Below, piece by piece: positions 35,736-43,282 of a DNA stretch of 64,000 bases. Positions within the stretch are counted from its first letter, which is position 1; the number at the start of each line of letters is the position of its first letter. This DNA comes from Bdellovibrionales bacterium (lineage in GTDB: Bacteria; Bdellovibrionota; Bdellovibrionia; Bdellovibrionales; Bdellovibrionaceae), in NCBI GenBank assembly GCA_018266295.1, contig JAFEAQ010000014.1, forward strand, positions 62,001 to 126,000, read 5' to 3'. Both the position numbers and the translations under genes were made by a program. The notes beneath the pieces are model-generated. The model did not search any database. It was given only the letters and a program-made list of their open reading frames with translations, and was not told where the DNA came from.

Positions 35736-37631
35736 ATGAGTCTCAAGTCGGTACGTCAATTGATGGGCGCCTTAGCCCTTTTTGCCTTTATCTTGGCTCC
35801 CGTGAGTCAGGCACAGATGATTCCTTTTGGCTTTTGGAAGTACCAAGTGGTCGGCAATACCGTGACCATCGTGCTCACTTCGGGAACAAGCTGGATTGTC
35901 CCGGCGGACTGGAACAACTCAAACAATAAAATCGAATGTATTGGTGGCGGAGGCGGCGGTGGCGCCGGTGGCTTTTATGCCGGGGGCGGAGGCGGCGGCG
36001 GCGCCTATGCAGCCGTTACCAATGTCACTCTTTCGCGCGCCTCAATCATCTCTTACGCCATTGGTGCCGGTGGTGCCGCGGGAGCCAACGGCGGAGCTAC
36101 CTCCTTCAACACTTCGACTTGCGTCGCTGCAGGCGGCACGAAAGGTGCCAATAACTCTGGTGGTGCGGGCGGAACGACGGCGGCCTCAACGGGCACCATT
36201 AAATACGCGGGTGGTGCCGGGGTTACTCCTGGCGGCGGTGCCTTTGGCGGATCCGGCGGTGGTGGTGCTGCGGGACCTAACGGTACCGGTGGCGCCGGCG
36301 GGTCAGGACTCACCTTTGGCGGCTATGGCGGCGGAGGCGGCGGAGGCAATGGCGGCGGGTCTGCCGGTAATACTGGAGGCAGCAATAACGGTGGTAATGG
36401 CGGTGGCAACTCCGCAGGCACTGGCGGTGGTGCTGGAAGTGTCACCACGGCGGCAGGCTCTCCCGGAACCAATGGTGGTGGCGGCGGCGGTGGCTACGGA
36501 GTCAATTCCGGATCCACCTTCGCTGGTGGTGCCGGTGGTGCTGGTAATGACCTCTCAGCCACGGTCGGAAGCGGTGGTGGTGGTGGAGGCGGCGGAGCTT
36601 CATTCGGCCCCGGCAATGTCGCTGGTGGCGGCGGCAATGGCGGCCTTTACGGCGGAGGCGGCGGAGGTGCCGGAGCCTATAACGGCGGTAGCGCTGCAGC
36701 TGCGGGCGCTGGCGGAGCCGGTGTGATCGTTATCACCTACACGCCGATTACAACAATTGTCGTCCTCACTTCAGGAACTCAGTGGACCGTGCCCGCAGGT
36801 TGGAACAGCTCCAGCAACATGATCATCGCGATCGGTGGCGGCGGCGGCGGAGCCACTGGAAACGCCAGCGGCGGCGGTGGCGGCGGCGCAGGTGGCGCCT
36901 ATGCCTATGTGACAAATTTATCACTCACTCCTGGCAATACTGTGAACTACAGCATTGGCAGCGGCGGTGGCGCCAACACCAATGGCGGCGACACATGGTT
37001 TAGCTCGACATCCACCCTCCTTGCCAAGGGTGGACCGAAAGGCACGACCACCAGCGGTGGTGCTGCACCAACAGGAAACATCGGTAATCTGACCAACACC
37101 GGCGGCGCCGGCGGAACAGCGACGTCCGGCTCGATGGACGGCGGTGGTGGTGGTGGCGGAGCCGGTGGCCCTGGCGGCGTCGGCGCTCCAGGTGGCGATG
37201 CCAATGCTACCAGCCAAGGTGGCGGCGGCGGCGGAGGCAGCGGCGGTGGTTACACTGCGAATAATGCTCCTTCGGACAATGGCGGTAACGGCGGCAACAA
37301 CAAATACAACACAGGCCGCGGCCTTGGCGGAACTTCCGCCGGCATAAAAACTGGCGGCAATGGCACCAATGGTGGGGGCGGCGGCGGAGGCTACGGCCTC
37401 TGGGGCGGCACGGGTTACAGCGGTGGCAATGGTGGTGACGGCATCGACCTCACGGCGCTCTTCGGGAGCGGCGGCGGTGGTGGTGGCGGCGGAAGCAGCG
37501 GTTCCACCGTCAACGGCGTCGGCGGCAACGGCGGACTTTTTGGGGGCGGCGGAGGCGGCGGCGCCGGACAGAGCTCGAGCCCGGCCGCGGGAGGCACCGG
37601 AGGTAACGGTGTGATTATTATCATCTACTAA
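35736..37631 (+). CDS. Large secreted glycine-rich protein with two phage-adhesin-like modules
   Basis: From ATG 35736 the product has about 631 residues: a signal peptide ending AQA, a mature N-terminus starting QMIPFGFWK, and two tandem modules of about 290 residues. Each module begins with a strand block (IVLTSGTSWIVPADW and VVLTSGTQWTVPAGW), passes the strand NKIECIGGGGGG or NMIIAIGGGGGG, and has a GAYAxVTNxxL segment. It then runs into a very long Gly/Ala/Ser/Asn-rich stretch and closes with the strands VIVITY or VIIIIY. This layout resembles the glycine-rich domain of phage tail-tip adhesins, where glycine helices pack into a sandwich. Surface attachment is inferred. The start lacks a good ribosome-binding site, and ATG 35763 is an alternative. 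Confidence 0.85.
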   Translation: MSLKSVRQLMGALALFAFILAPVSQAQMIPFGFWKYQVVGNTVTIVLTSGTSWIVPADWNNSNNKIECIGGGGGGGAGGFYAGGGGGGGAYAAVTNVTLSRASIISYAIGAGGAAGANGGATSFNTSTCVAAGGTKGANNSGGAGGTTAASTGTIKYAGGAGVTPGGGAFGGSGGGGAAGPNGTGGAGGSGLTFGGYGGGGGGGNGGGSAGNTGGSNNGGNGGGNSAGTGGGAGSVTTAAGSPGTNGGGGGGGYGVNSGSTFAGGAGGAGNDLSATVGSGGGGGGGGASFGPGNVAGGGGNGGLYGGGGGGAGAYNGGSAAAAGAGGAGVIVITYTPITTIVVLTSGTQWTVPAGWNSSSNMIIAIGGGGGGATGNASGGGGGGAGGAYAYVTNLSLTPGNTVNYSIGSGGGANTNGGDTWFSSTSTLLAKGGPKGTTTSGGAAPTGNIGNLTNTGGAGGTATSGSMDGGGGGGGAGGPGGVGAPGGDANATSQGGGGGGGSGGGYTANNAPSDNGGNGGNNKYNTGRGLGGTSAGIKTGGNGTNGGGGGGGYGLWGGTGYSGGNGGDGIDLTALFGSGGGGGGGGSSGSTVNGVGGNGGLFGGGGGGGAGQSSSPAAGGTGGNGVIIIIY

Positions 37632-37704
37632 GCTCAGAAAGTCGCTATGCCACGGGTTACAATGCGAGTCTCATTGTCGGCGTGAAGGGCTGAACTAGCG
37701 ATCC

Positions 37705-38319
37705 TTAGAAAGATTCACTTTTCAATTGCTCAACATCCAAAACATAGCCGGCAGGTTCGTTAGTCATTTCGTAGTTTATTTCTGGCAAAAAGCCGTCGGT
37801 GGTTTGGCAGAGGCCGACGGAGTCAGGCGTGTTGAATTCGCAGAAAAGCTTTTGCAGACTGCTCAGCGATGGAACATCCATGGGCGCTAGGCCCGCAGAG
37901 ATCAGATCTTTGTTATCGTGGTCTACTTTTGCTTTTGTCAGGATCGAGAGGCTTTCGTAGACCTTGCCGTTGTCAAAATTCACATATGCTGTATCAAGAA
38001 CATACTCACACTTGCCGCGGATCCCCGCCATCGGCAGCGCAATACTGTACTCACCTGTGCTTTGAGCGACCGTGATCTTCATGAATTTCCCCGCTTCGTT
38101 GGGGCTGTATTTATCTTCAGGAAATGTGCAGTTTGCAAGACTCTTGCTCGGGTCCAACTTTCCGGCGGGCACATAGAACGCAAGAGTATCGACTTTAGCG
38201 CCTCCCTCGACAACTCCATGAATTGTCGATATTTTTGAGCTCAGTTGAAGCGGCGTCTCGGCGGCAAAAGCCCCCCTTGTCAGAGTCAAAAAGGTGCAAA
38301 AAACTACGAGGCTTTTCAT
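37705..38319 (-). CDS. Secreted protein, unknown function
   Basis: The 204-residue product starts with a signal peptide (residues 1-19, ending GAFAA). The mature part has four cysteines (in NCTFPEDKY, GKCEYV, LFCEFN and GLCQTT) and regular strand patterns such as TLAFYVPAGKL and STGEYSIALP. The spacing suggests a beta-rich domain with two disulfides. I do not recognise a family. It is convergent to the large glycine-rich gene and sits in the cluster of exported proteins. Confidence 0.78.
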   Translation of the reverse strand: MKSLVVFCTFLTLTRGAFAAETPLQLSSKISTIHGVVEGGAKVDTLAFYVPAGKLDPSKSLANCTFPEDKYSPNEAGKFMKITVAQSTGEYSIALPMAGIRGKCEYVLDTAYVNFDNGKVYESLSILTKAKVDHDNKDLISAGLAPMDVPSLSSLQKLFCEFNTPDSVGLCQTTDGFLPEINYEMTNEPAGYVLDVEQLKSESF

Positions 38320-38470
38320 ATTCTTTTCTCCGTCCGTAATAATGCAGAGACTTTATCCCAAAGCCTGCGAAAGTCTGAGAATTTAAGTCAAACCTCGACC
38401 TCTTTTTGCTGAAATACCTAACAAGCCCCTCCCCACCCCCTTAAACCAGGAGCGTCAGATCTTTACGTCT

Positions 38471-38487
38471 GTATCAGTTATTGATAC
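38471..38487. promoter_or_regulatory. Inverted repeat upstream of the GST gene
   Basis: GTATCA and TGATAC form perfect six-base arms with a five-base spacer, containing ATC-N7-GAT as seen in LysR-type boxes. It lies about 40 bases before the GST start in a 207-base divergent intergenic region and could be an operator. No regulator gene is adjacent. Confidence 0.4.
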
Positions 38488-38526
38488 AAATTAAGAGTCT
38501 TTCAACACTCACAAAGGAATAAATGA

Positions 38527-39135
38527 ATGAATCTCTATTACTCTCCGGGCGCTTGTGCTTTGGCTTCGCAAATTGCTCTTCGTGAAGCAGGTATGAACTT
38601 TGAACTTGTTAAAGTTGATCTTAAAGCCAAAGAATATGCTGGCGGCGACTACAAAAAGGTAAATCCAAAGGGGTACATCCCGGCCCTGCAATTACCAAAC
38701 GGTCACTTGATGACAGAAGGTGCCGTGATCTTGCAATGGATCGCAGACCAAGTTCCTGAGAAAAATCTTTTACCAAAGTTTGGTACGATGGAACGCTACA
38801 AAGCTATGGAGTGGTTGAATTTCATCGCGACAGAAATTCATAAAGGTTTGGGGTCATTATTTGGCGCGGCCGTCATGAACGAAGACACTAAGAACCAAAT
38901 CAAATCAAAAGTGCAATTGCGTTTGGCTGTGCTAGATCAACACCTGCAAAACAACGCGTTCATCCTCGGCACAAACTTCTCTGTGGCAGATGCTTATGCT
39001 TACAACGTTCTTCGCTGGACTGGCATCGTGGGTGTCGATATGGCAAACCACACAGCGATTCAAAAGTTTATGACGAAAATCGCTGAACGTCCGACGGTGA
39101 AAGAAGCTGTTGCTGCGGAAGGCATTAAGCTTTAG
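38527..39135 (+). CDS. Glutathione S-transferase, beta-class type
   Basis: The enzyme conjugates glutathione to electrophiles or acts as thiol reductase in the cytoplasm. The 202-residue product begins MNLYYSPGACALA with S6 and C10 in the positions of bacterial beta-class enzymes, where the cysteine contacts glutathione. The thioredoxin-like half continues to VNPKGYIPALQLPNG (with the cis-proline loop) and LMTEGAVILQWIAD. The all-helical half has the FSVADAYAYNVL capping-box motif. AAAGGAAT lies upstream of the start. It is a single gene closed by a terminator. The presence of glutathione chemistry fits gloB at 13 kb. Confidence 0.93.
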   Translation: MNLYYSPGACALASQIALREAGMNFELVKVDLKAKEYAGGDYKKVNPKGYIPALQLPNGHLMTEGAVILQWIADQVPEKNLLPKFGTMERYKAMEWLNFIATEIHKGLGSLFGAAVMNEDTKNQIKSKVQLRLAVLDQHLQNNAFILGTNFSVADAYAYNVLRWTGIVGVDMANHTAIQKFMTKIAERPTVKEAVAAEGIKL

Positions 39136-39157
39136 TTTTTTAGATACTTCTAAATGC

Positions 39158-39191
39158 AAAAAGCCCGGGGTGATGAACCTCGGGCTTTTTT
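39158..39191 (+). terminator. Rho-independent terminator after the GST gene
   Basis: AAAAAGCCCG and CGGGCTTTTT pair, with further GG/CC pairs around a seven-base loop, and the T-run is strong on both strands. It could also serve the minus-strand protease gene ending at 39267. Confidence 0.85.
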
Positions 39192-39266
39192 TATTTTGAT
39201 TTTATAGACCCAATGTTTTGATGCATTTTCTCAATTCTGAGACCTAGTTTCTAGAATTAAGAATCA

Positions 39267-40553
39267 CTACTTAATGTAGCTTGCATCGCGTGTGGCTTCG
39301 ATGATGCGGGACTTAGGAATCCAAGCATAGCCATCGGCCGCTTCAAATTCCGAAGTCTCAGGACGCCAGTCTTTGCCGTAGGAGTTTTTAAGCAAGTACT
39401 CACACTGGCCCGATTTTGGGTTTAAACGACGACCCACGAGAAGGCTTGAGTGATACACAGTCCCCGTTGCCTTGTAGGGGTTTACATAAAAATCAGCATT
39501 GTAGCCGATCTCGACTGGATTTTTCTTCGAAAGCTCTCCGTCGATTTGCTGACCGAATTTTTTTGCATCGAACTTCGTAAAGAGACCCATCTCAAGCTCG
39601 TCGGTCCGGATGCGGTTGGCGCAGTTTTGATTCACTAAAGAATTGAAGTATGTCGCTCGATTGGCTTTTTTGAGAGTTTCAATGAATTGCTCTTTTGTCA
39701 GATTCGGAAAAAGTGCGCGGGATTTTTTGATAAACTCTTCGCGCGAGATTTCGCTCCTAAGCGCCTTTTTGCCAAGACGATCTAGTGCTGCGAGCGGAAC
39801 ATTCGTGGTAATTCCTTTAAAGCCTTCACTCGGCAAATCTTTCTCAAGGCAAAAACCTTTGGCCTTTGCCGCTTTAAATGCCAGCGTTGTAAAACCAATA
39901 TTCGTAATTAAATCCTGAGTCACCCCCACCGCACGAAGAACATCGTAAAATTCATTATCACCATAAGCAAAAGCGACACCGGCCGCAGACACCTCGGTCC
40001 CAATCCGGGCTGAAACCATATTGGCAACTGTGAAAGCGTAACACCAGCCATCCTGCCCTTGATTATGGATAGGTCCGGTCTTGTCACGAAGATCCACATT
40101 GAAACAAGTCTTGGACTCTTCTGCATAGGACTGAGCCGATTGCTTTTGAACTTTTTTAATAAATTTTGCAGTCTCTTGCGGAGTCAGATCCGTGCCCTCT
40201 GCCATGTACTTTTTAAAAGCTTCAAGTCTCGCATCCACTTTGCCGCTTTGAGAGTACAAATTTAAAATAAATCTTTGGCGGGTGATTTCATCGCGGCGTG
40301 ATTTTTCAAGCGCCTGATCATACATCGTATCAGAAATGCCAAGAGAGCGCAGATCGATTTTGCAACGGCTTACGAGTGCCTGGGCCATTCGGATCTGCGA
40401 ACTTTTATCCGTTAATTCCGTCTTATCACCGAAAATTTCAATATTGAGCTTTCGCAAATCTTCTTTTGCATTCTCACAAGATGAATTGCTTGCGGCCGCG
40501 AAAGCCGGAACCAAAGAAAGTAAAACGACCACCATTTTTTGCATAAGCCCCAC
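39267..40553 (-). CDS. Secreted papain-like (C1 family) cysteine protease
   Basis: The 428-residue product has a signal peptide (about residues 1-21), an N-terminal helical part of about 130 residues that may be a propeptide, and a papain-like domain. The catalytic set is visible: Q165 and C171 in NQGQDGWCYAF, H368 in VYHSSLLVG and N390 in LLKNSYGKDW. The domain has inserted helices between these motifs, so it is longer than papain itself. It probably digests proteins in the periplasm or outside the cell, possibly prey proteins. It sits amid glycine-rich and cysteine-rich exported proteins; a processing role for them is a guess. Confidence 0.86.
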   Translation of the reverse strand: MGLMQKMVVVLLSLVPAFAAASNSSCENAKEDLRKLNIEIFGDKTELTDKSSQIRMAQALVSRCKIDLRSLGISDTMYDQALEKSRRDEITRQRFILNLYSQSGKVDARLEAFKKYMAEGTDLTPQETAKFIKKVQKQSAQSYAEESKTCFNVDLRDKTGPIHNQGQDGWCYAFTVANMVSARIGTEVSAAGVAFAYGDNEFYDVLRAVGVTQDLITNIGFTTLAFKAAKAKGFCLEKDLPSEGFKGITTNVPLAALDRLGKKALRSEISREEFIKKSRALFPNLTKEQFIETLKKANRATYFNSLVNQNCANRIRTDELEMGLFTKFDAKKFGQQIDGELSKKNPVEIGYNADFYVNPYKATGTVYHSSLLVGRRLNPKSGQCEYLLKNSYGKDWRPETSEFEAADGYAWIPKSRIIEATRDASYIK

Positions 40554-40828
40554 TTCAAATACTTAGCTTTATTTTGCCGGACCTTTGAAGTGAGGAAAAG
40601 AGTTTGACTGTTGGAGACGTATATTCTGGACTGAACGCTCCTCCCCAAGGGTCAGAGCCGAAGAATAATTCTCTCTATGTTCCCGCTTTTTCCAGATAGA
40701 AAATAGTTCCTTTTAAATCCGAAAATGATCACTTTATGGACGCATCATTTGCGGCGATGATCAATACGCTCGCAGAGGGACTTGGCCTCGCCCTTGCAAA
40801 CTCCGGCTGCATATTAAAGGAGTTTCCT

Positions 40829-41218
40829 ATGAATTCAATGCTTAAACTGGCCTTAACGGCAGCCCTTAGCCTCTCAGTATCTGCAAGCTTCGCAGCAAGT
40901 ATCACTTGCAGAGGACTCAGCGACAACGGCACCGATATTAGCTTTAGACACACCACTCGCCCTGATGGGGCCGTCAAGATTTCAATTATAGAATCCCAAG
41001 ACGGTGAGGTTCTCTATAAAAATTCCTGGAGCAGCGACCTCACAACTCGCTCACCAAAAGTCAATGGACTGTCCTTACAAGACAGCACTGGCAGCCGTGG
41101 AGAGTATTACTCACAGCTTGAACTATTCGGCAATGCGGGGTCGTTGAACTATGAAGAAAACGATTCCGGCTGGGAATATTCTATTCACACCGCACAGCTG
41201 ACTTGCGAGACAAAATAG
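40829..41218 (+). CDS. Small secreted protein, unknown function
   Basis: The 129-residue product begins with a signal peptide (residues 1-24, ending SASFAAS), and AAAGGAG lies before the ATG at 40829; an in-frame start 31 codons earlier has no export signal. The mature domain is strand-rich with two cysteines, one right after the signal (SITCRGLSD) and one at the very end (LTCETK), likely disulfide linked. The same plan, a SITC or TITC start and an end in TCETK or SCTKN, is seen in the secreted protein at 48.4 kb, so these may be distant paralogues. No function is known. Confidence 0.8.
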   Translation: MNSMLKLALTAALSLSVSASFAASITCRGLSDNGTDISFRHTTRPDGAVKISIIESQDGEVLYKNSWSSDLTTRSPKVNGLSLQDSTGSRGEYYSQLELFGNAGSLNYEENDSGWEYSIHTAQLTCETK

Positions 41219-41450
41219 ATTCCGCATTTGGTACTGAGGGCAGGCCTGCGTCCGATTGATTTTTCTGGGAGCAATCCGCTGTCCACGGATCATTCCGGCG
41301 CATGTCTCATCTCACGCAAGAAAAAAATAAGCTCGATCTTCTCTTCAAGGTTCTTGCTGGAGCGAAAAAAACGCGTGCTCGTTTTAGAGGACAAGATCAG
41401 GTCTTCGCACCTCTCGTAGAGCTTGTTAGCCTTCTTCTGCGAGGGGATCT

Positions 41451-42521
41451 ATGCCAACTAAGTATCTGCTTCAGTATTTTTTCATCTTTGCAGCACTCAC
41501 TCTCAACTTTTCTTCACCCATCTATGCGCAAACAATGCCGATTGGTTTCTGGAAAGGACAACTCAAAGTCGTTGTTCTGACGTCTGGTTCCTCTTGGACC
41601 GTGCCGAACGATTGGCGTAGCACCAACAACACAATCGAGTGTATCGGTGGCGGCGGCGGCGGAGGGGGCTCCAACGCCTACGGTGGTGGTGGCGGAGGAG
41701 GAGGCGGCGCCTATGCAAAAATCTCAAATCTTACACTCACCCCTGGCGCAAGCGTGTCTTACACGATCGGCACCGGCGGCAATGGAGGCATTGGTACCTA
41801 CAGCGTCGCCGTGAACCCCGGCACGGCCGGCGGCGATACCTGGTTTTCATCTTCCGCCACAGTGATGGCAAAAGGCGGCTCGGCCGGTACAACACTGATC
41901 GCTGATGGATCTACGGGTGGCGGTGCCGGTGGCGCCTCTGCAAGTAGCGTCGGCACGACGAAATTTTCCGGGGGCCCTGGCGGGAATGCGTTTCACAGCG
42001 GCAGTACTTACAACGATGCCGGCAGCGGAGGGGGCGGAGCCGGAGGTCCCCTCGGCAATGGCGCCTCCGGCGGTACGGGCAACCCAACCGGCGAAGGCTC
42101 TGGCGCAGGGGGCGGTAATGGCGGCGGCACCGCCGGCGGCAACTCCAACGTCGACAACGGGGCTGTTGGTGGCAACAATGCCGGAGGCACCGGCGGTGGA
42201 ACCGCCGGAAACTCGACAACTCGCCCAGGCGGCGCAGGAACAAATGGCGGCGGTGGCGGAGGCGCTTATTCCGTCTGGGGAACGAACGGCTATCTCGGCG
42301 GTGTCGGTGGAAATGGTATCGACATCACTTCCACTGTCGGCAGCGGTGGTGGTGGCGGCGGCGGAGGTGGCGGTGGCGCTGTCAACGGAGTCGGCTCTAA
42401 CGGCGGCCTCTACGGAGGGGGCGGAGGAGGCGGCGGTGGCACAGGCATCAGTGGCACCGTCAATGCAGCCGGTGGCAGCGGCGCCGCCGGTGTTATCGTT
42501 ATTAAATATTATCCAAGATAG
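41451..42521 (+). CDS. Secreted glycine-rich protein with one phage-adhesin-like module
   Basis: The 356-residue product has a signal peptide ending IYA, a mature N-terminus QTMPIGFWK, and one module collinear with those of the larger gene at 35.7 kb. It starts VVVLTSGSSWTVPNDW, passes NTIECIGGGGGG, GAYAKISNLTLTPG and GGDTWFSSSATVMAKGG, then a glycine-rich core, a GIDITSTVGSGGGG segment, and ends VIVIKYYPR. The shared order of motifs across three modules shows common origin. GAGGGGATCT lies before the ATG. A surface adhesin or matrix role is inferred from resemblance to phage tail-tip glycine-rich domains. It is convergent with the cysteine-repeat gene 20 bases away. Confidence 0.86.
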   Translation: MPTKYLLQYFFIFAALTLNFSSPIYAQTMPIGFWKGQLKVVVLTSGSSWTVPNDWRSTNNTIECIGGGGGGGGSNAYGGGGGGGGGAYAKISNLTLTPGASVSYTIGTGGNGGIGTYSVAVNPGTAGGDTWFSSSATVMAKGGSAGTTLIADGSTGGGAGGASASSVGTTKFSGGPGGNAFHSGSTYNDAGSGGGGAGGPLGNGASGGTGNPTGEGSGAGGGNGGGTAGGNSNVDNGAVGGNNAGGTGGGTAGNSTTRPGGAGTNGGGGGGAYSVWGTNGYLGGVGGNGIDITSTVGSGGGGGGGGGGGAVNGVGSNGGLYGGGGGGGGGTGISGTVNAAGGSGAAGVIVIKYYPR

Positions 42522-42541
42522 TTTTATGCTTACTTCTATGA

Positions 42542-43282
42542 CTATGGATTTGCACAGGCGCAAACACGCTGTGTCCCGGCAAGAGTCGCCGCACAGGTTG
42601 TGGTGAGTGCCCCAAGATAACGATAACTTCCAGTACTCTGATAACCGCACCCAACGGCGGTGCTTCCACTTGCTCCACCCGAGGTTCCTTGATCAAGGGC
42701 TGTCAGAATTTGATCGCACTTTGTTCCTGAAGAGGACGCATTCGTCGTTCCCGTCAGATCACAACCGCCGTAAGACGCACAAACCGTATCGCAACTCGCC
42801 GCCGCCGCACCAAGGCGATAGTTATAACCATCAACAGTGGCCACCCCTGCCTGCAGCGAGCCACCGCTACCACAAGAGCAAACACGCTGCTGGCCACTCC
42901 CCGTCGCGCCACAGGTGATGGCGCCGGTATCATAGGTGTAAGTCGTCCCGTTAATGGAGCAGGCATAAGCATAAGAATTGGTACCGCCGGCAAAACCGCT
43001 CGGGCTTTTTCCAAAACTTGTCAGCACCGAAGCACAAGTGGCTTTAACATTAGCGACGGCCTTCGTCGCCGTCTGCAAACATCCGCCGAGCGAAGCACAC
43101 GTGGTGTAGCAGTTATCGCCCGCAGCTCCGAGATAATAGCAATTGCCACTATAAGCAATACCGCCGCTGGGACAACTGATTCCTGAGGTTTTCCAAAACG
43201 CAAAAGGGAGGAGCTGCGCTTCTGCCGCGAGAGAAAGAAAAGCCATGGAAAAAAATAAGGCCATTCGAACAACGTACACCAT
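42542..43282 (-). CDS. Secreted protein with two eight-cysteine repeats
   Basis: The 246-residue product has a signal peptide ending AEA and mature N-terminus QLLPFAFWK, matching the two glycine-rich proteins. Two repeats follow, about residues 49-137 and 155-243. Repeat one has cysteines at 58, 62, 68, 83, 108, 124, 135 and 137; repeat two at 164, 168, 174, 189, 212, 230, 241 and 243. Spacings are 4-6-15-25-16-11-2 and 4-6-15-23-18-11-2. Both contain LGAA, CASxGGC and QRVCxC. Four disulfides per repeat are likely. I do not recognise a named family; a small extracellular binding module is plausible. Confidence 0.85.
   Translation of the reverse strand: MVYVVRMALFFSMAFLSLAAEAQLLPFAFWKTSGISCPSGGIAYSGNCYYLGAAGDNCYTTCASLGGCLQTATKAVANVKATCASVLTSFGKSPSGFAGGTNSYAYACSINGTTYTYDTGAITCGATGSGQQRVCSCGSGGSLQAGVATVDGYNYRLGAAAASCDTVCASYGGCDLTGTTNASSSGTKCDQILTALDQGTSGGASGSTAVGCGYQSTGSYRYLGALTTTCAATLAGTQRVCACANP

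Follow-up and report, generated by a model that had tools for sequence, protein, structure and literature searches.

In T-even phages, the gp37 trimer carries a cap, gp38, held by conserved Trp seated in hydrophobic pockets (PMC6851490), and gp38 of phage PP01 is functional on the T2 fibre only when it carries the N-terminal part of T2 gp38 (PMC12892980). For the MAT fibres of Bdellovibrio, tip diversity has been described within one polypeptide, single deletions had little effect—probably owing to redundancy—and a search of the main text found neither a separately encoded head nor a downstream partner or N-terminal tag (PMC10769870). It is still an open question by what means Bdellovibrio-type predators recognise prey of many kinds, the leading candidate being MAT fibres, and our literature search found no description of a MAT-fibre head. 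Here we describe a short peptide tag (typified by PFAFWK) at the mature N-terminus of three exported proteins encoded in a 64,000-nucleotide stretch of a Bdellovibrionales genome (hereafter the window, G000:C14:62001-126000; genome G000, 4,222,407 bases). We propose that the tag is probably a docking peptide that holds detachable adhesin heads on the tips of MAT-type fibres. No paper mentioning PFAFWK was found in the literature search.

The three mature N-termini each lie directly 3' of a signal peptide (called by simple rules rather than by SignalP), two on the + strand and one on the − strand. The first belongs to a glycine-rich exported protein of 631 aa with two Gly-rich blocks (open reading frame 35736..37631, +), in which a signal peptide of 26 aa ending in SQA (35736..35813, +; placed by the −3/−1 rule, as in all 28 tagged proteins of this genome) precedes QMIPFGFWK as mature residues 1–9 (35814..35840, +). 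The second is a glycine-rich exported protein of 356 aa (41451..42521, +) with a phage tail-fibre-like Gly-rich domain, a 26-aa signal peptide ending in IYA (41451..41528, +) and the tag QTMPIGFWK (41529..41555, +). This protein passes Pfam Gly_rich_2 (PF21722; 39.8 bits vs. a gathering cut-off of 24.3), which the first protein matches weakly (11.7 bits, under the cut-off), and it further matches PHROG 863 (tail fiber assembly; E 6e-9), 7yfw/7ypx by profile, and the Pam3 fibre 7ypx and phage Gly-rich proteins by Foldseek; in its AF2 model the tag region is coil, of low confidence at its start, and the domain begins at residue 39. The third, on the opposite strand, is a cysteine-repeat exported protein of 246 aa (open reading frame 42542..43282, −), with a 22-aa signal peptide ending in AEA (43217..43282, −) and the tag QLLPFAFWK (43190..43216, −). 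It has no Pfam match, gave no usable AF2 model (pLDDT 41) and has a single paralogue in G000 (L152:6378-7109, 58% identity). An initial annotation of the window had given these proteins identical first nine residues and wholly different bodies thereafter; the coordinates of the tagged N-termini are confirmed, the tags prove similar rather than identical, and the bodies differ completely only in the case of the Cys-repeat protein, the two Gly-rich proteins being related to each other. Phage records held no match for the Gly-rich proteins (tblastn, low-complexity filter on), the Cys-repeat protein or the fibre-tip domain described below. Between the tagged genes lies an exported papain-like cysteine protease (window 39267-40553, −; PF00112 barely over cut-off), for which no link to the tag was seen.

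Within G000, the DNA pattern P-[hydrophobic]-[AG]-F-W-K has 14 matches, all of them behind a signal peptide, against 0 for the reversed control, and relaxed patterns together with a signal-peptide-plus-tag profile (A1) bring the total to 28 tagged exported proteins. Their consensus at the mature N-terminus is x-[LMT]-I-P-F-[AG]-F-W-[KR], and the spacing to the cleavage site is exact: a canonical signal-peptidase I site stands precisely three residues before the Pro in 28/28, with A, S or G at residue −4 from the Pro and a small or aliphatic residue at −6 throughout, such that the −1/+1 junction is in every case where the tag begins. Mature position 1 varies (Q 14, A 6, H 4, G 2, S 1, F 1) and is followed by [LMT], mostly I, P (28/28), F (25/28), [AGST], F (28/28), W (23/28) and [KR] (27/28); beyond residue 9, conservation is at background level. 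As Gln comes first in just 14/28, and Ala, His, Gly, Ser or Phe in the remainder, pyroglutamate is not general, and the earlier suggestion of it as a common feature is rejected. A lipobox Cys at +1 is present in 0/28, so that none is a bacterial lipoprotein by this measure. The signal peptides ahead of the tags are unrelated in sequence and the Pro of the tag uses all four codons among the 28, from which it follows that the peptide itself is selected, not copied DNA. A 144-aa exported protein elsewhere in the genome (L333:773-1207, G000:C11), with the mature start MVKPFGHWTLK, is a possible tag variant missed by the profile.

What follows the tag is unrelated from protein to protein: Gly-rich, RCC1, Kelch and laminin-G-like bodies, a weak fibrinogen-like match and the Cys-repeat pair in G000, and FG-GAP, DUF285/PKD and DUF6242 in relatives. 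The motif is thus common outside the three window genes, many unrelated exported proteins carrying it, and does not mark where a single domain begins; the initial annotation's view that whole-gene duplication does not account for the tag holds good. Both Sec and Tat signals precede the tag, several carriers, mostly RCC1, having twin-arginine signals. Since the Tat route exports folded proteins, it is on a folded protein that the tag has to be recognised, either in the periplasm or beyond it. The RCC1 proteins inspected (L235–L284) comprise a lipobox type without tag and a Tat type with tag, and none has both.

The tag is narrowly distributed. Across 84,980 species genomes the strict pattern gave 18 matches, of which 4, every one from Bdellovibrionales, follow a signal peptide, while the remaining 14 are internal or out of frame; the nearest named relatives bearing the motif are Bdellovibrionaceae and Bdellovibrionales assemblies. 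Within the class, a clear tag occurs in 20-odd of 144 genomes. In the genus of G003 (24 genomes)—G003 itself we take, very probably, to be B. bacteriovorus HD100—diverged tags (GFAAPGFWKKK, QIFTHSFWKKK, QMIPHGAWKRR and others) are found on Tat-exported RCC1 proteins of four species, and a fifth species (G015) has a degenerate tag on a Gly-rich protein.

The evidence that points from a tag to a docking partner comes from gene neighbourhoods. The initial annotation had anticipated a co-occurring protease, transferase or secretion gene; a first neighbour comparison failed to bear this out, only TIGR02147 regulators and their secreted companions being recurrent, and no conserved secretion gene recurred in the neighbourhoods of tagged loci. 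A second comparison with more genomes returned two recurrent partners besides the regulators: a TPR glycosyltransferase-like protein, encoded next to Tat-RCC1 genes, and fibres encoded by very long, repetitive genes. These partner fibres have a signal peptide but no tag, a long repetitive body in which no S74 domain was found, and a common ~100-residue C-terminal tip domain. Fibre and tagged gene are paired (i.e., adjacent, or with modification genes alone in between) at 12 loci in 10 genomes (G004, G011 twice, G015, G016, G026, G027, G032, G052 twice, G056 and G086), and they often overlap or lie <30 bp apart, as where fibre L336:2822-5281 overlaps tagged gene L336:1287-2846 (G032) or where 12 bases separate fibre L335:4445-7666 from tagged gene L335:3455-4432 (G015). 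In an unbiased subset, the 11 strict tags outside G000 that were found before fibres were considered, 3/11 lie ≤5 kb from a tip-domain fibre against a chance expectation of 0.07 (p about 5e-5). Several fibres match the solved MAT fragments 8ond, 8oml and 8ojn—the L320 fibre (8ond 7e-10, 8ojn 6e-8), an HD100-like fibre (8oml 5e-8) and a fibre of the window's own genome (8ojn 0.002)—and no MAT match was obtained for the fibres of L316 and L314; judged by similarity to solved MAT segments, the partner fibres are kin to the MAT family.

Across the class, the tip domain was found in 63/144 genomes by a tip-domain scan, in 20/22 genomes with a true tag vs. 43/122 others (Fisher p 9e-7, kinship between genomes uncorrected). 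The gene directly downstream of a tip-domain fibre often overlaps the fibre's stop and encodes an exported protein with a diverged, tag-like mature start, such as QWISPSFWKQ, QFAGGSFFKRR, QMFNMGAFWKRK, FRSTVAFWKG, QFVVPFSYWKN or YYNLGAFWRAS, with GAFWKRK also among the diverged tags; in G003, a fibre of 1,959 residues is followed by an NHL-repeat protein of 711 residues whose mature start reads FGGGFWQKRH. A PF-type core resembling that of the window's tags is present in several heads encoded next to fibres (QFVPFGFWKK, QGMPFAFWKA, QFVVPFSYWKN, SMPFGFFSQ).

Several observations weigh against docking at fibre tips. The first concerns the window's own genome, which has four tip-domain fibres and 0/28 tagged genes within 20 kb of one; three of these fibres have other partners, and the fibre at C4:763484 has none. 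Genomes G002 and G068 (85% and 93% complete) are tagged and yielded no tip domain, and the tip domain itself is without a solved relative by sequence search, PDB giving spurious fibronectin matches only. In favour of docking, a loose tag pattern is carried by 22/40 exported partners directly downstream of tip fibres vs. 19/365 other exported proteins; the pattern was set post hoc, once the partners had been viewed, and at 20 further fibre loci, mostly with weaker tips, few partners are tag-like and most have other N-termini, so that other N-terminal types exist. Taken over every pair, tag similarity does not follow tip identity (r 0.04, Mantel test not significant). A link that favours docking is seen among close tips: where tips share at least 0.45 identity and partner bodies are dissimilar, tags are more alike than by permutation (2/5000), as in an F-R-x-x-x-[AG]-[FM]-W group from genomes of three families; these thresholds were picked after the global test had failed, and we therefore give the tip–tag link modest weight.

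These misfits—distant fibres in G000, no tip in G002 and G068—are the reason why a sorting or anchoring role keeps an appreciable minority share of our belief. The tag could be a post-export signal that a secretion or surface-anchoring machine recognises (type II-like, a CsgG-like outer-membrane channel or an outer-membrane receptor), the pairing with fibres then reflecting shared surface use. A linear tag at the mature N-terminus of unrelated proteins would suit such a machine, Sec and Tat carriers together are what one that handles folded substrates would be expected to have, the tag and the lipobox are mutually exclusive among RCC1 proteins, and the distance of the 28 G000 tagged genes from any tip-domain fibre would need no explaining. 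Yet the partner fibres lack the tag and are exported all the same, so that it is not a general surface signal; the tag diverges along with closely related fibre tips, as a single shared machine would not require; and no conserved secretion gene recurs beside tagged genes. We consider this alternative unlikely on balance, and docking the likelier in view of the pairing of tagged genes with genes for MAT-type fibres, which lack the tag. Of the initial annotation's sorting, anchoring or recognition signal acting after Sec export, what survives is a recognition tag at the mature N-terminus; Sec as the sole route does not, several carriers being Tat-exported, and general sorting gives way to docking at the fibre tip.

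It is improbable that the tag is read in the periplasm with no surface role, as a chaperone or protease signal (e.g., the SurA-type aromatic-x-aromatic motif) or as a cyclisation or processing site. F-A-F is indeed an aromatic-x-aromatic motif and the N-terminus is exposed beside the cleavage site, but Gln occupies position 1 in half only, the fibre pairing is left unexplained, and the tag is limited to one bacterial order in the species genomes searched, whereas SurA-type chaperones are widespread. Least probable is a functionless 5' cassette of signal peptide and tag that hitchhikes by recombination: many of the genes are paralogous accessory genes, several near TIGR02147 regulators, as such a cassette would have it, but the codon diversity of the Pro already contradicts it, as do the unrelated signal peptides, and across families of the order the peptide is conserved within surroundings that change.

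In the docking model, Sec or Tat export followed by signal-peptidase cleavage would expose the tag x-h-I-P-F-A-F-W-K, whose hydrophobic-aromatic residues would then fit, as a plug, a pocket that a trimeric surface fibre of MAT type would have at its C-terminal tip. The domain behind the tag would be an exchangeable adhesin head, be it a Gly-rich sandwich, RCC1, an NHL/Kelch propeller, laminin-G, fibrinogen-like or Cys-repeat. The model builds on the tag, its exact cleavage-site spacing, its spread over unrelated exported domains, the fibre pairing and the phage-fibre-like Gly-rich head. Binding of tag to tip, its stoichiometry, and the surface location and adhesin role of the heads are inferred, and in G000 many scattered heads would compete for, and share, few fibres. 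More tentatively, this predator order may mount dozens of unrelated heads on few fibres via a universal peptide plug, the heads of G000 having multiplied to 28 and split from the fibre genes to give a combinatorial prey-recognition repertoire. If so, the prey-binding repertoire would far exceed the fibre count, the first nine mature residues would suffice to identify each head, and binding domains of choice could be attached to fibres with the plug as a tool.

Some heads may be expressed singly. TIGR02147 (Fsuc_second) helix-turn-helix regulators, of which G000 has about 40, lie within 2 kb of 9/28 tagged genes (e.g., L157:7182-8018, L165:7306-8088 and L163:13351-14148), where a mean of 1.5 is expected and 0/20,000 random placements reached 9. 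The fibre operon of G003 has a TIGR02147-looking gene on its other side (L410:197-931, judged by eye).

Other genes accompany the fibres. At some loci the fibre, methyltransferase-like, glycosyltransferase-like and tagged RCC1 genes stand in a single row. TPR glycosyltransferase-like genes in a row with Tat RCC1 heads occur at L314:13753-14772, L315:7222-8244, L316:10316-11449, L318:10509-11519 and L326:8153-9199, two of these five loci also having a small methyltransferase-like gene; the TPR protein, which has only weak TPR matches in Pfam, is a candidate for modifying the head once it has folded, ahead of its export from the cytoplasm. At some loci a small lipoprotein gene lies immediately upstream of the fibre (L410:1167-1451, L314:1996-2325, L318:13588-13926, L317:12709-12975); three of these four lipoproteins carry GCS[LF]EA, and the small lipoprotein is a candidate membrane anchor of the fibre. 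In G000, a 1,850-residue fibre (L334:8290-13842, G000:C19) with two tip-domain copies (C19:345292, 346552) overlaps an RCC1 gene that lacks the PFAFWK tag and has the mature start GYYNLGAMIQGP.

Set against known systems, the proposed arrangement resembles gp37–gp38 (S16, 6F45; PMC6851490, PMC12892980), with which it would share a trimeric fibre capped by a separately encoded head, N-terminal attachment and a conserved Trp. The Gly-rich head domain may be a further likeness, that of gp38 bearing hypervariable loops, and the gp38-like gene order, with the head gene just after the fibre gene, is seen at many loci, where the head would sit on the fibre tip. The means of attachment differ, as gp38 uses a three-helix domain with three Trp and the tag comprises nine residues, coil in the AF2 model, usually with one Trp. 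Unlike gp38, the heads here fall into eight or more domain types; kinship with gp38 is not evident in sequence, and 6F45 was not among the Foldseek matches listed for the Gly-rich head, a comparison that covers the Gly-rich subset of heads only. By profile and fold, the window's Gly-rich heads are like phage Gly-rich tail-fibre proteins (PF21722, PHROG 863, Pam3 7ypx), though here the domain belongs to a cellular protein that is exported and bears both a signal peptide and the tag. The partner fibres resemble the Bdellovibrio MAT family (8ond = bd2133, 8oml, 8ojn) in their long repetitive body and signal peptide, whereas the tagged proteins are not MATs, having unrelated domains in place of the conserved ~130-residue beta-rich domain behind the signal peptide. 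In curli assembly, an N-terminal targeting sequence on CsgA is read by CsgG, which serves one substrate type that crosses unfolded. Like that of CsgA, the tag is a linear signal immediately behind a Sec signal peptide; unlike CsgA, its carriers are unrelated to one another and some are exported folded, via Tat.

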